Shown piece after piece: positions 23,116 through 46,080 of a stretch of 64,000 nt of DNA (positions are counted from its first letter, which is position 1; each line of letters begins with the position of its first letter). Under the pieces are notes generated by a model. The model ran no database searches. It saw nothing but the letters and a program-made list of their open reading frames with translations, and was not told where the DNA came from. Position numbers and translations under genes: made by a program. Origin of the DNA: Methylotenera sp. (GTDB taxonomy: Bacteria; Pseudomonadota; Gammaproteobacteria; Burkholderiales; Methylophilaceae); NCBI GenBank assembly GCA_009693255.1, contig SHXQ01000003.1:62001-126000 (forward strand), read 5' to 3'.

Positions 23116-24462
23116 ATGTCAAACAAAGTAGTAAAAAATACCGTAGCAAAAAATGTCGTCGTCATCGGTACGCAATGGGGTGATGAAGGCAAAGGTAAGA
23201 TAGTCGATTGGCTCACTGACCATGCGCAAGGCGTGGTGCGCTTTCAAGGGGGTCATAATGCAGGTCATACGCTAGTGGTTGGGCAGGGTGATGCTCAGCG
23301 CGTATACAAACTTAATCTCGTGCCTTCAGGCATTGTGCGTTCTGGTATCAATTGCTATATCGGCAATGGTGTCGTGTTAGATGCCGGTCACTTGTTGGGT
23401 GAAATTGCCGCACTAGAGAAAGATGGTCTAGAAGTCAAAAACCGTTTAAAAGTAAGTTCCGGTTGTCCGCTCATTTTAAGTCATCACGTGGCAGTAGATG
23501 TGGCGCGTGAAGCCAAGCGTAGTGCAGATAAAAAAATTGGCACCACCGGCAAAGGCATAGGCCCAACTTATGAAGATAAAGTTGCGCGCCGCGCGTTGCG
23601 TGTTTATGATTTATTCTACCCCGAAAGATTCTCAGAAAAATTACGCGAAGTGATGGATTACCATAACTTTGTGCTGACTAATTATTTAGGGGCGAAAGCT
23701 GTTGATTTTAATCAACAATATGATGCCAGCATGCAGCATGCTATTGCTTTAAAGCCTATGATTAGCGATATTTCTGCTGAGCTTTATGCCGCCAATGCCC
23801 GTGGCGACAACCTACTGTTTGAAGGAGCACAAGGCACACTATTGGATATAGACCACGGTACTTACCCCTATGTGACTTCAAGTAACTGTATTGCCGGTCA
23901 AGCTTCAGCCGGTGCAGGCGTGGGCGCTAATATGTTGCATTACGTGCTGGGTATTACTAAGGCTTACACAACGCGTGTCGGTGGCGGTCCGTTCCCAAGT
24001 GAATTGAATATCGATACTGAGGGTGCACCAGGTACGCAAATGTCGGTAAAAGGTCGAGAGATTGGTACAGTCACCAAGCGTAAACGCCGTTGCGGCTGGT
24101 TTGATGCCGCTGCACTGCGTCGTTCAGCCATGATTAACGGACTTACCGGGCTATGCATCACTAAATTAGATGTATTGGATGGCATTAAAACGCTCAATAT
24201 TTGCATCGGTTACGAGTTGGATGGACAAAAAATAGACTTACTACCAATAGGCGCAGACGATGTGGCGGGTTGTAAACCTATTTATGAAACCGTAGCCGGT
24301 TGGTCAGAAAATACTTTTGGTGTAAAAACTTGGGATGGTTTGCCAAAAAATGCACAACACTATCTTAAACGACTAGAAGCCTTATGTGGCGTGCCAGTGG
24401 CAATTGTTTCTACCGGCCCTGAGCGCGATGAAACCATTGTGATTGAACATCCATTTGCTTAA
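23116..24462 (+). CDS. purA: Adenylosuccinate synthetase
   Basis: Converts IMP plus Asp plus GTP to adenylosuccinate in AMP synthesis. The GTP-binding/catalytic N terminus [21 protein letters not shown] and [11 protein letters not shown] are intact, as are [14 protein letters not shown] and the [12 protein letters not shown] loop. 448 aa, including a short N-terminal extension. The methanopterin-cofactor operon starts 7 bp downstream in the same direction, so purA and hisZ may be cotranscribed with it. Confidence 0.97.
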
Positions 24463-24469
24463 TTAAGCC

Positions 24470-25018
24470 ATGCAAAAACAGCGCTTAGCATGGGCTATTA
24501 CCGGCTCGGGGCATTATTTGCGCGAGTCTCTGGCTATACTCAGTACGCTGGAAAATGTGGATATATTCTTAAGCAAAGCAGCGGCGGAAATCATCAAACA
24601 ATATGGTTTTCAAGCCATGTTAGACGCAAGCAATCACCGGGTATATCAAGATAAAACAGCCAGTAGCGTCCCTGTTGAACTGTTTTATGAAGGTCAATAT
24701 CACACCCTAGTGATTGCGCCAGCTACTTCAAATACCATTGCTAAAATGGCCTACGGATTCTCAGACTCACTGGTGACTAATCTTTATGCGCAAGCAGGTA
24801 AAACGCGCATTCCAAGCATAGTGTTTGCTTGTGATACCGCGCCAGAGATTGAATCTGAAGCGCCACGTGCGCATGTGGTTAAGGTTTATCCGCGCCAAAT
24901 TGATTTAGATAATGTGGCAAAGTTAGCTGCGTTTGAGGCAACAAAAGTCGTGGCTGACATGGCTACACTGTCAGTAGCTATTCATCTGCGCATCAATGAA
25001 GTCCTGAGTAAAAGTTAA
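24470..25018 (+). CDS. DmrB/AfpA-type flavoprotein (dihydromethanopterin reductase family)
   Basis: Flavoprotein-family (PF02441-like) protein starting RLAWAITGSGHYLRESLAIL with the FMN-site stretches LVIAPATSNTIAKMAYGFSDSLVTN and PSIVFACDTAPE. In betaproteobacteria with tetrahydromethanopterin (H4MPT), such archaeal-like flavoproteins (AfpA/DmrB) reduce dihydromethanopterin to H4MPT, the last biosynthetic step. 182 aa, soluble. First gene of a tight four-gene operon (spacings 3, 3 and -4 bp) that otherwise contains only H4MPT/methylofuran-associated families, which supports the assignment. Biochemical role here is inferred. Confidence 0.82.
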   Translation: MQKQRLAWAITGSGHYLRESLAILSTLENVDIFLSKAAAEIIKQYGFQAMLDASNHRVYQDKTASSVPVELFYEGQYHTLVIAPATSNTIAKMAYGFSDSLVTNLYAQAGKTRIPSIVFACDTAPEIESEAPRAHVVKVYPRQIDLDNVAKLAAFEATKVVADMATLSVAIHLRINEVLSKS

Positions 25019-25021
25019 ACC

Positions 25022-26440
25022 ATGGTCACTGAGAATTTACTTTTTTTAACAGGTAAATTGGCCGAAAAAAGCTTGCATAAAGTGTTAGCTGAAGTGCAGA
25101 ATAATCCAAAAATACCCCCTTTCAAATACCGCGTTCAGCAAATCGGCGTCTCTGTCGCGGCCTTAATGACGCCGGATTTAATTGCTCGCCGACTTAAAGA
25201 AACAGGCGATGCGGACAAAGTGATTGTGCCTGGACTCTGTTTAGGGGATATATCACCGTTAGCCGTGCAATATGGCGTGCCGGTTGAGCGTGGACCGGAA
25301 GATTTAAAAGATTTACCACAATACTTTGGACAAACCGGTGTGACGCCAGACTTAAGCCGCTATCGGGTACAGATTTTTGCTGAAATTGTGGATGCGCCTT
25401 TTTTAAGCGTAGCAGGCATTGTTAATAAAGCGCAGCAATACCGGGCTCAAGGTGCTAATGTGATTGATTTAGGTTGCTTGCCCGCGGTACCTTTTCTGCA
25501 TTTAAAAGAGGCCGTTCAAGCATTAAAAACATTGGAATTTCAAGTCAGTGTAGATTCTCTTAACACCGATGATTTGCTCACTGCGGGGCATGCCGGGGCA
25601 GATTATTTACTCAGTCTCACGGAAAAAACGTTATGGATTTCTGATGAAGTCGCGTCTATACCCATTCTAATTCCTGCTAAGCCGCATAGCTTAGCTTCGC
25701 TTTATCGGGCGATAGAGGCTTGCTTGCAAACGGGTAAGCCATTTATTGCCGACGCCATTCTAGACCCCATTCACTTTGGTTTAACCAACTCAATTGTGCG
25801 TTATCAAAAGTTACGTAAAAAGTATCCTGATATTCAAATCATGATGGGGATAGGCAATTTAACGGAACTGACAGATGCTGATACGACAGGCATCAATGCG
25901 CTATTATTTGGCATGATTAGCGAACTGGATATTAATGCGGTACTAGCGACATCGGTGAGCCCGCATGCGGTGAATGCCATTACTGAAGCCGATATTGCTA
26001 GACGCATGATGTATGCGTCTAAAAATGATGATAGGCTGCCGCGGGGTTATAGCAGCGGCTTGTTAGGGCTGCATGATAGACGGCCATTTAGCTACAGTGT
26101 CGCTGAAATTAATGAAATTGCCAGCATGGTGAAAGACCCAAGTTTTCGCATTCAAGTGAGTGAAACAGGGCTGCATATTTACAATCGAGATGGGCTACAC
26201 GTGGCCACTGACCCCTACACGCTTTACCCTAAACTTAAGCTTGATGATGATGCCTCACATGCATTTTATTTAGGGGTTGAACTGGCGCGCGCGCAAATTG
26301 CTTGGCAGCTTAAAAAGCGCTATGTGCAAGATCAGGCGCTTGAGTGGGGCGTGAATAGCCTACCGCAGCCAGTCACGGCTAAAACAGCGCATCGCGAGGC
26401 TTCGATAAAAGCGCGTAAAGAGATGGCGAAGAAAACTTAA
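25022..26440 (+). CDS. Dihydropteroate-synthase-like protein with DUF6513 N-terminal domain
   Basis: 472 aa. Residues about 1-130 look like the DUF6513 domain (LLFLTGKLAEKSLHKVL...VIVPGLCLGDI), followed by a TIM-barrel related to dihydropteroate synthase (GANVIDLGCLPAVP, FQVSVDSLNTDDLLTAGHAGADYLLSL, MMGIGNLTELTDADT) and a C-terminal extension ending in a basic helix. Homologues occur in methanogens and in H4MPT-containing methylotrophs, where they belong to the H4MPT biosynthesis gene set. The exact reaction is not established to my knowledge. Starts 3 bp after the flavoprotein gene. Confidence 0.8.
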   Translation: MVTENLLFLTGKLAEKSLHKVLAEVQNNPKIPPFKYRVQQIGVSVAALMTPDLIARRLKETGDADKVIVPGLCLGDISPLAVQYGVPVERGPEDLKDLPQYFGQTGVTPDLSRYRVQIFAEIVDAPFLSVAGIVNKAQQYRAQGANVIDLGCLPAVPFLHLKEAVQALKTLEFQVSVDSLNTDDLLTAGHAGADYLLSLTEKTLWISDEVASIPILIPAKPHSLASLYRAIEACLQTGKPFIADAILDPIHFGLTNSIVRYQKLRKKYPDIQIMMGIGNLTELTDADTTGINALLFGMISELDINAVLATSVSPHAVNAITEADIARRMMYASKNDDRLPRGYSSGLLGLHDRRPFSYSVAEINEIASMVKDPSFRIQVSETGLHIYNRDGLHVATDPYTLYPKLKLDDDASHAFYLGVELARAQIAWQLKKRYVQDQALEWGVNSLPQPVTAKTAHREASIKARKEMAKKT

Positions 26441-26443
26441 ATC

Positions 26444-27019
26444 ATGATCTATGAAGCTATTATTAGTACGGTGAACAGTCGTGGTGATTCCCATGTGGCG
26501 CCGTTTGGCATACAAATGCAAGATGGATTAGTGCTTATTTCGCCCTATAAGCCTTCTGTCACGCTGGATAATATTTTAGCTACCCAGCACGCGGTGTTGA
26601 ACTTGACGGATGATGTGCGCGTATTTTCCGGGGCATTGACTAGGCGGCAAGCATGGGCGCTGTTGCCGGCTGAAAAAGTAATGGGCTTTAGGTTGGCCGA
26701 TAGTTTGTTACATAAAGAGTTAACGTTAGTCAACGTGGTCGATGACGCCTTACGCCCGCAATTGACGATGGAGGTGATGCACGAGGTGCAGCATCTGCCA
26801 TTTCAAGGCTTCAATCGCGCACAAGCTGCCGTGATCGAGTTGGCCGTGCTGGTTAGCCGTTTGCACTTGTTGGCAAAAGACAAAGTGCTGGCTGACATGA
26901 AGTATTTGCAAATTGCGATTGATAAAACGGCTGGTGAGCGAGAGTTGCAAGCGTGGTGCTGGTTGACGGAGAAAGTAGAAAACTATTATGCGGAGCAAGC
27001 AGGGAAGAACTTTGCATGA
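26444..27019 (+). CDS. DUF447 family protein (flavin-reductase-like split barrel)
   Basis: 191 aa, opening MIYEAIISTVNSRGDSHVAPFGIQ, the typical DUF447 start with an FMN-binding split-barrel look, then a helical C-terminal half (FNRAQAAVIELAVLVSRLHLL). DUF447 proteins are shared between methanogens and H4MPT methylotrophs and are needed for the H4MPT pathway in the latter, but without a proven reaction. Starts 3 bp after the previous gene and overlaps the next by 4 bp. Confidence 0.8.
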   Translation: MIYEAIISTVNSRGDSHVAPFGIQMQDGLVLISPYKPSVTLDNILATQHAVLNLTDDVRVFSGALTRRQAWALLPAEKVMGFRLADSLLHKELTLVNVVDDALRPQLTMEVMHEVQHLPFQGFNRAQAAVIELAVLVSRLHLLAKDKVLADMKYLQIAIDKTAGERELQAWCWLTEKVENYYAEQAGKNFA

Positions 27020-27732
27020 ATTCGCCCATCATGCCTATCGTCAATAGCACGCAATTGCTCATTAGCGTCACCAGTATCGAGGAGGCGCAGATTGCCTTAG
27101 CACATGGTGCGGACATCATAGACTTAAAGAATCCGAGTGCGGGTGCGCTTGGAGCTTTGCCGGTAGAGCAAATTAAAGCGATTATTAGCTTTGTCCGCAA
27201 TAACAAAGGCTTAAGTAAAAAAATAACCAGCGCAACGATAGGCGATTTGCCCATGCACCCCCAGTTGTTGCGGCAGCATGTGGTGAACATGGCGGCCACA
27301 GGCGTGGATATTATCAAAATTGGTTTTTTTGAATGCGACAACTATCAAGCCTGTTTAGAGGCGTTGGCGACATTAACGCAAGCGGGAACAAAATTGATGG
27401 CGGTGTTATTTGCCGAAACTAGCTATCCAGAAAACCTCATTGCATCAATCAAAGCAGCTGGTTTTATGGGCGTGATGTTGGATACCGCCCAAAAAAATGG
27501 CTTAACTTTGTTGGATTATTACTCAGAAACCCAGCGACGAGCATTGGCACAAAAAGTATTGAACTGCCACTTGCGGTTTGGCTTAGCAGGTTCTTTAAAA
27601 CAAGAACACGTGGCGATGATTAAGGCGCTCAATCCAAGCTATATAGGCTTTAGAGGCGGCGTTTGTAATAATCATCAGCGTGAACTGCACTTAGATGCCG
27701 AGAAAATAAAAGCTATTCGGCAGCTATTGTAA
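27016..27732 (+). CDS. (5-formylfuran-3-yl)methyl phosphate synthase (MfnB-like, DUF556)
   Basis: TIM-barrel synthase that in methanogens condenses two glyceraldehyde-3-phosphates to the furan precursor of methanofuran. The motif DIIDLKNPSAGALGALP carries the D-x-K pair (residues 36-38) of the active site, and GLAGSLK and IGFRGGVC match the family's C-terminal region. The ATG at 27016 is chosen over the GTG at 26953 because it gives an ATGA overlap with the DUF447 stop and the right N terminus. 238 aa. Its presence predicts a methanofuran-like C1 carrier (methylofuran) in this organism. Confidence 0.85.
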   Translation: MNSPIMPIVNSTQLLISVTSIEEAQIALAHGADIIDLKNPSAGALGALPVEQIKAIISFVRNNKGLSKKITSATIGDLPMHPQLLRQHVVNMAATGVDIIKIGFFECDNYQACLEALATLTQAGTKLMAVLFAETSYPENLIASIKAAGFMGVMLDTAQKNGLTLLDYYSETQRRALAQKVLNCHLRFGLAGSLKQEHVAMIKALNPSYIGFRGGVCNNHQRELHLDAEKIKAIRQLL

Positions 27733-44355: not shown

Positions 44356-46080
44356 TTGAACCCTAAAATGCTGAGTGACATTGAAATCGCACAAGCCGCC
44401 ACACTTAAGCCGATGTCCAAGATAGCCGCTCAACTTAATCTTCATGCGGATGACCTGATTCCTTATGGGCATCATATTGCTAAGTTAAGTGAAGTTTGTA
44501 TTCAAAATTTGCAAGACCAAGCAGATGGTAAGCTGATTTTAGTCACCGCCATCAGTCCTACCCCTGCTGGTGAGGGTAAAACGACTACGACCATAGGCTT
44601 GGCGGACGCCATTAATCAGGTGTTAGCTGATAGCAGTAAGCATGCCATGGTGTGCATGCGCGAACCTTCGTTAGGGCCGGTATTTGGCTTAAAAGGGGGT
44701 GCAACAGGCGGTGGTTATGCGCAAGTGGTGCCTATGGAAGAAATTAATTTACATTTCACCGGTGATTTTCATGCCATTGGCAGTGCGAATAATTTACTTG
44801 CAGCCCTAATCGACAATCACATCTATCAAGGTAACACACTCAACATCGAGCCCTCAAGTATCACTTGGCGTCGTTGTTTAGATATGAATGACCGTGCCTT
44901 GCGTCACATCACGCTCAATAGCCAAGCAAAAGATGCCGAATCAAACGTGCTTAAGTCGTATGATAGACAGACTGGTTTTGACATTACCGCGGCCAGTGAA
45001 GTGATGGCGATATTTTGTTTAGCCACTTCCCTTGAAGATCTACAAGCTAGATTAGGCAATATTCAAATTGGCTTAACCACGCAGCAACAACCAGTATTTG
45101 CCAGTGATTTGCAAGCTGAAGGCGCTATGACGGCGCTATTAAAAAATGCATTTCAACCGACCCTAGTACAAAGCTTAGAGCATACTGCGGCAATTGTGCA
45201 TGGTGGCCCTTTTGCCAATATCGCGCATGGTTGTAATTCTGTGATTGCCACCAAGACCGCATTAAAGTTAGCCGATTACGTGGTGACAGAAGCGGGGTTT
45301 GGTGCGGATTTAGGCGCTGAAAAATTCATTGATATCAAGTGTAGAAAAACTGGGCTAGAGCCTGCAGTGGCCGTATTGGTGGCTACCGTGCGCGCACTTA
45401 AATATCACGGTGGCGCGGATGTACCCGCCTTAAACCAAGAAAATTTAGCTGCCTTAAAGACGGGCATGGTGAATTTACAAAAACATGTCGAAAACCTTCA
45501 ACAACATTTTGGTTTGCAAGTGATTGTAGCCATCAATCATTTCGCCAGTGATACCGACGCTGAAGTTAGTTTATTGCAGACGGAAGTCGCAAAGTTTGCT
45601 GTGAAGGCCATTGTTTGTAAGCATTGGGCACATGGTGGAGCAGGCGCCAAAGCATTGGCGCTAGAAGTGTTGCGTGTGGTAGATCACAACGCAGTACAGG
45701 CAAGCAGTCAATTTAAGTTATTGTACCCAGACCATCTACCTTTATTGCAAAAAATAGAAACGATTGCGCAAAAAATATATGGCGCAAGTCAGGTTGAATG
45801 GTCTGCTGTTGCCACGCTTAGTTTGACTACGCTAGAAAAAAACTATGGCCATTATCCGGTTTGTATTGCCAAAACACAGTATTCATTTTCATCAAATCCT
45901 GCTTTGCGTGGCGCACCAACCGGACATACATTGCAAGTGCGTGAATTAAGATTGTCGCGTGGCGCAGAATTTATAGTGGCAATCTGCGGCGACATCATGA
46001 CTATGCCTGGTCTACCTAAGCAACCCGCCAGTGAGCGCGTCAGCGTCAATCAGGCCGGCACTATTACTGGTTTGAATTAG
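44356..46080 (+). CDS. fhs: Formate-tetrahydrofolate ligase
   Basis: Forms 10-formyl-H4folate from formate, ATP and H4folate; in methylotrophs it feeds formate carbon into serine, purine and fMet synthesis. P-loop [62 protein letters not shown] and the C-terminal [16 protein letters not shown] are diagnostic. The TTG start at 44356 has GGAG at the right distance; an in-frame ATG at 44368 is less well placed. 574 aa, normal to slightly long. Confidence 0.95.

Follow-up and report, generated by a model that had tools for sequence, protein, structure and literature searches.

A purA-linked afpA-orf20-orf19-mfnB cassette as a probable part of the tetrahydromethanopterin and methylofuran biosynthesis set of a Methylotenera-like methylotroph

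A four-gene cassette and the remainder of its pathway

Directly behind hisZ and purA, a 64,000-nucleotide window of Methylotenera sp. (assembly GCA_009693255.1, contig SHXQ01000003.1, here C7:62001-126000) carries four closely packed genes, afpA, orf20, orf19 and mfnB, and the locus raises the question of which cofactors these genes serve and what their position next to a purine gene means. The assembly amounts to 1.40 Mb and is 84.7% complete, and Methylotenera-labelled records are among the nearest relatives of the window by sequence. Our analysis assigns the four genes, with a probability of roughly 0.9, to the second half of a chromosomal tetrahydromethanopterin (H4MPT)/methylofuran biosynthesis set in a Methylotenera-like, methanol-using freshwater methylotroph (Methylophilaceae). 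This assignment rests on the protein families, on the remaining pathway genes found elsewhere in this genome, on a near-perfect co-occurrence with Mch and on literature on the same genes (PMC3615186, PMC8141765). A sequence-only reading of the window had already proposed an H4MPT/methylofuran operon whose four families are all common to methanogenic archaea; these lines of evidence support the proposal, and the family matches support the archaeal kinship.

The four genes lie on the forward strand. The first, afpA/dmrB (24470..25018; PF02441, 3wis by phmmer), encodes a flavin mononucleotide (FMN) flavoprotein proposed to be the dihydromethanopterin reductase of the last H4MPT step. It is followed by orf20 (25022..26440; PF20123, TIGR00284, weak PF14251), whose product combines DUF6513, a dihydropteroate synthase (DHPS)-like TIM barrel and a C-terminal PterinBD-DUF4346-like piece, by orf19 (26444..27019; PF04289/PF20766), coding for a predicted FMN-binding split-barrel protein of DUF447, and by mfnB/orf22 (27016..27732; PF04476, E = 7.6e-70), of the 4-(hydroxymethyl)-2-furancarboxaldehyde phosphate (4-HFC-P) synthase family. 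The purA stop at 24462 is separated from the afpA start by 7 bp, the next two intergenic gaps (afpA-orf20 and orf20-orf19) are 3 bp each, and orf19 overlaps mfnB by 4 bp. Re-reading of the DNA reproduced the open reading frames (ORFs), coordinates and spacing given earlier, and Pfam, NCBIfam and PDB matches agree with the family assignments. For mfnB, the ATG at 27016 is favoured over the longer GTG version at 26953 called by the ORF lister, because the Pfam match, counted from this ATG, starts at residue 14 and because the 4-bp ATGA overlap is also found in relatives. The set is not a product of chance, since about 80 related genomes share both the genes and their order.

The main archaeal-like one-carbon (C1) cluster lies on the same contig, about 47-60 kb downstream of the cassette and beyond the window. 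Its first part encodes β-ribofuranosylaminobenzene 5′-phosphate (RFAP) synthase (GHMP kinase), mtdB, an ATP-grasp protein, mch, a RimK-type ligase (orf5/myfB) and a CitG-type protein (orf7), and its last part orf17, an ATP-grasp protein (mfnD-like), a hydantoinase-type protein (mfnF/orf9-like), pabB and an amino-acid kinase (mfnE/orf21-like); these names were assigned from families and from the M. extorquens mapping in PMC8141765. Between the two parts are genes for a transaldolase, an OMPdecase/HUMPS-family protein and a SIS protein, apparently ribulose monophosphate (RuMP) pathway genes, and the cluster is thus interrupted by RuMP-type genes (L087:11264-19825 and L088:386-5349). What the main cluster lacks is exactly the four genes of the window, which fill exactly this gap, and in searches of the whole genome the operon of the window was the only site of DUF6513, DUF447 and MfnB. 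The H4MPT-dependent C1 enzymes are encoded as well: Mch at C7:139939 with MtdB adjoining, a full fae at C23:19152, and fhc about 25 kb upstream of the cassette (C7:55.9-61.1 kb), consisting of FTR (C7:57140), a GXGXG protein, an amidohydrolase-type protein and one unmatched ORF. At L133:2180-2635 (G000:C7:52179-52634) a 5′ fragment of fae, about 42 codons followed by TAG, is joined directly to the coding region for the C-terminal portion of a universal stress protein, apparently as a deletion scar.

Of 150 Burkholderiales genomes, 21 have both DUF6513 and Mch, and each of the two is found alone in a single one (Fisher p = 2e-23, ignoring phylogeny), the lone DUF6513 being in G084 (97% complete) and the lone Mch in G136 (79% complete). 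DUF447 and MfnB display the same pattern across these genomes, and across 299 Pseudomonadota genomes DUF6513 and Mch mark the same 14. In control archaea, M. jannaschii and Sulfolobus gave hits to both DUF447 and DUF6513, and Haloferax and Methanosarcina to DUF447, MfnB and Ftr being confined to M. jannaschii and Methanosarcina. This distribution assigns Orf19 and Orf20 to the pterin side and not to the furan side, and supports a division into a pterin branch (afpA, orf20, orf19) and a furan branch (mfnB).

Two sets of observations weigh against the assignment. First, the AfpA, TIGR00284 and NF002576 scores fall short of curated equivalog cut-offs; for AfpA these are 101 versus 192 bits for TIGR02699 (archaeal AfpA) and 96 versus 251 for TIGR02700. 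As both models describe archaeal proteins, the protein was filed as a bacterial AfpA and not as the archaeal equivalog. Second, G084 has DUF6513, DUF447 and MfnB with no detected Mch, which indicates that persistence of the cassette in the absence of the pathway is at least possible. At this locus (L122, G084:C87:1-13383) afpA-orf20-orf19-mfnB is present with an apparent frameshift in orf19, which may mark a relict or a sequencing error.

Predicted functions of the four products

AfpA is homologous over nearly its whole length to the characterised beta-proteobacterial AfpA/DmrB, its best PDB match by phmmer being 3wis, 'Putative dihydromethanopterin reductase (AfpA)' (E = 1.3e-50). The proteins of 3wis/4mwg come from Burkholderia xenovorans (PMC6193120). 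We infer from the literature, in which AfpA/DmrB is the dihydromethanopterin reductase carrying out the final reduction to H4MPT (PMC6193120), that the window's protein catalyses the same reaction.

MfnB scores 235.7 bits with PF04476 (cut-off 22.4) and is a full-length homologue of MJ1099, the MfnB of Methanocaldococcus jannaschii (4rc1, 4u9p; E = 2.2e-29 to 4rc1). The residues that we take to be catalytic in MJ1099, Asp25, Lys27, Lys85, Asp151 and Lys155 (numbered 7 higher in the PDB sequence), are all kept in the window and in at least 97% of 75 MfnB sequences. Homology and residue conservation together predict that MfnB makes the furan precursor, which for this family would be (5-formylfuran-3-yl)methyl phosphate, and Orf22 has been equated with MfnB (PMC8141765). 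The bacterial proteins are fast-evolving, with a median end branch of 0.26 versus 0.10 for orf20. The window's mfnB is 32-41% identical to Methylophilus-type and 43-47% to Methylobacillus-type sequences, and purA and afpA rank these in the opposite order. Replacement of mfnB in situ was considered and ruled out, as the mfnB and orf20 trees, read unrooted, give the same three groups; the discordant identities are explained by the faster evolution of mfnB.

The earlier remark that at least two proteins of the operon have unsettled reactions holds for Orf20 and Orf19. Orf20 matches PF20123 (DUF6513; E = 1.8e-36) and, under its curated cut-off, the DHPS-like model TIGR00284 (E = 7e-55), and its profile weakly matches Sul2/Sul3. 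In its AlphaFold model (mean pLDDT 80) the DUF6513 domain precedes a DHPS-like barrel, and the best PDB folds found by Foldseek are DHPS (4d9p, E = 4.6e-10, TM score on target 0.65) and then MetH, which points to a predicted TIM barrel of the DHPS type. The Pfam Pterin_bind model (PF00809) finds only FolP and MetH in the genome and does not match Orf20. Because a separate canonical FolP (at C1) and MetH exist, Orf20 would be dispensable for folate. No Orf20 homologue was found in a search of phage records.

We give even odds to Orf20 being the enzyme that condenses the pterin with RFAP, that is, the DHPS of H4MPT synthesis. The TIGR00284 match, the DHPS fold neighbours, the separate FolP and the co-occurrence with Mch all favour this role, as does the invariance of D178 and D244 on strands 3 and 6, which correspond to the conserved barrel aspartates of DHPS. 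On the other hand, two features of DHPS, the lysine on strand 7 (SRKS) and the Arg/His on strand 8 (RVH), had no visible counterpart, and strand 7 of Orf20 is an invariant GxGNxTE (it reads GxGNLTE), nearer the asparagine of methyltransferase (MetH) barrels. These correspondences come from a manual strand-by-strand mapping and are to be taken as a lead; a profile comparison with the genome's FolP aligned a single stretch (probability 48%), too weak for residue mapping. A clearly less probable option is that Orf20 is a non-condensing pterin-binding enzyme with a methyltransferase-like pocket, in which asparagine stands in for the catalytic lysine, and that together with Orf19 it would tailor H4MPT, for example by pterin methylation or reduction. 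If true, this tailoring would be an undescribed step that sets H4MPT apart from folate.

Orf19 matches both halves of DUF447 (PF04289/PF20766), and its structure model (pLDDT 95.7) finds its best folds in 3b5m (Rhodopirellula) and in three structures determined with FMN, 2nr4, 2iml and 2ptf, with a more distant resemblance to flavin reductases. We accordingly predict an FMN split-barrel protein. This fold and the shared operon could suggest that AfpA/DmrB is reduced by Orf19 as its flavin or electron-transfer partner, an idea that we regard as doubtful: Methylobacterium, which we take to have an Orf19 homologue, uses DmrA and not AfpA, and DUF447 is also found in Haloferax and Sulfolobus. The use of DmrA in place of AfpA by Methylobacterium has been described (PMC5020050, PMC6193120). 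The role of Orf19 is probably not tied to AfpA.

The purA junction and the inheritance of the cassette

purA (23116..24462, forward strand; NF002223, 629 bits with a cut-off of 402; PF00709) encodes adenylosuccinate synthase and is preceded by hisZ, identified by family match. From the gene layout, afpA, orf20, orf19 and mfnB probably form one short operon read through from purA, co-transcription with purA being likely because the gap is 7 bp and no terminator was found. Promoter and terminator scans of the locus yielded no excess over shuffles (6 versus 11.6; 7 versus 7.2), a result compatible with the presence as well as the absence of internal signals. The adjacency is highly conserved: purA lies directly upstream of afpA in 78 of 80 related loci, which corresponds to all 78 testable Methylophilaceae-type loci, since L047 is cut by a contig end and L082 comes from another lineage. 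In about 66 of the 78 the distance is 50 bp or less, as extrapolated from alignments (12 bp in both L030 and L045), and in the others it reaches up to 1.4 kb (332 bp in L024); in L038 an unrelated reverse-strand gene separates purA from afpA.

The sequence-only reading had considered that coupling to purA reflects GTP and purine supply for the pterin cofactor, an interpretation that we find quite unlikely. The 7-bp gap with no terminator between, and an adjacency kept in every testable Methylophilaceae-type locus, would be compatible with a functional operon of this kind. However, PurA directs IMP towards the AMP branch and consumes GTP, which weakens the rationale, and purA stands beside the cassette in none of the 14 loci from other Burkholderiales families, nor on plasmids of Azoarcus and Thiodictyon; the linkage is therefore not conserved wherever the cassette occurs. 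In some relatives, moreover, 100-1400 bp or the unrelated inserted gene splits purA from afpA, and unrelated genes are kept just as faithfully, the whole chain hflX-hflK-hflC-hisZ-purA-afpA-orf20-orf19-mfnB-(ompA)-mtaD-ubiG-gph being conserved wherever contigs reach. Given 78 of 78 loci inside and 0 of 14 outside, the purA junction is a derived, family-specific relocation in Methylophilaceae-type genomes. The link to purA would speak of transcription and not of metabolism, and recognizing the relocation as lineage-specific removes a tempting but poorly supported functional inference.

The phylogenies of orf20 and mfnB, a check suggested earlier, yield the same three family-wide groups (read unrooted), and these together with the fixed chromosomal site indicate vertical inheritance within Methylophilaceae. 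We consider a recent acquisition of the four genes as an archaeal island extremely improbable. All four families are common to methanogens and other genera carry the cassette on plasmids or chromids, which would fit such an origin, but the trees match the family-wide groups at a fixed site and the window's genes are nested among Methylophilaceae. Several side observations concern these relatives. The ompA-like gene between mfnB and mtaD is absent in six loci (L052, L055, L057, L058, L070 and L078), the order being otherwise the same. Contig L069, filed under a Sulfuritalea metagenome-assembled genome, has purA 95% and orf20 85% identical to the window and is probably a misbinned Methylotenera-type contig. 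The operon is also present in L029, L046 and L070, labelled Candidatus Methylopumilus (labels unverified), and small-genome planktonic Methylophilaceae have been described as being without H4MPT functions (PMC5020050). Within the window itself, formate--tetrahydrofolate ligase is encoded at 44356-46080, so that folate-linked and H4MPT-linked C1 genes lie at most 20 kb apart.

A known cassette in a family-specific setting

Order and strand of the cassette are kept in nearly all 14 loci of other Burkholderiales families, where it usually adjoins the remaining C1-cofactor genes or a sigma-54 regulator; two of the 14 are broken, with mfnB about 17 kb off in L125 and about 10 kb between orf20 and orf19 in L126. 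Plasmid pAZKH of Azoarcus sp. KH32C (NC_020548) has the same four genes, touching or overlapping in the same order, and the same partner genes, but its cassette is embedded in a single contiguous cluster downstream of a sigma-54 regulator, without purA and with methanol and formate dehydrogenase genes. The gammaproteobacterial Thiodictyon plasmid pTs485 (L135) also carries the four genes in order without purA, and no other cofactor-cluster genes were seen within the 17-kb stretch; its cassette sits between formate dehydrogenase genes and the DISARM gene drmA. The same AfpA, Orf20, Orf19 and Orf22/MfnB are encoded in the archaeal-like H4MPT/methylofuran clusters known from methylotrophic Proteobacteria, such as Methylosinus trichosporium and M. 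extorquens (orf19-22 in the latter; PMC3615186, PMC8141765). The Methylosinus island reads orf19-orf20-afpA-orf21-orf22 (PMC3615186), whereas the window has afpA-orf20-orf19-mfnB behind purA, its orf21/mfnE belonging to the main cluster at a distance of about 60 kb. The locus is thus a family-specific instance of a known, widespread gene cassette.

In the pathway that we propose, the RFAP synthase of the main cluster would supply the RFAP unit, and the pterin branch would include Orf20 and Orf19, most likely at the joining of pterin and RFAP or after it. Most economically, Orf20 would perform this joining or a following step and Orf19 a flavin-dependent pterin step, the exact steps of both being those that we infer here; AfpA (DmrB) would then reduce dihydromethanopterin to the tetrahydro form. 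In the furan branch, MfnB would make the precursor from which MfnE, MfnF, MfnD, MyfA and MyfB of the main cluster complete methylofuran, and the finished cofactors would serve Fae, MtdB, Mch and Fhc in the conversion of formaldehyde to formate. Our results indicate that in several families and on plasmids these four genes are kept together as a single conserved cassette. Distribution and folds would place Orf19 and Orf20 in the pterin branch, which makes them testable candidates for unassigned steps of bacterial H4MPT synthesis.

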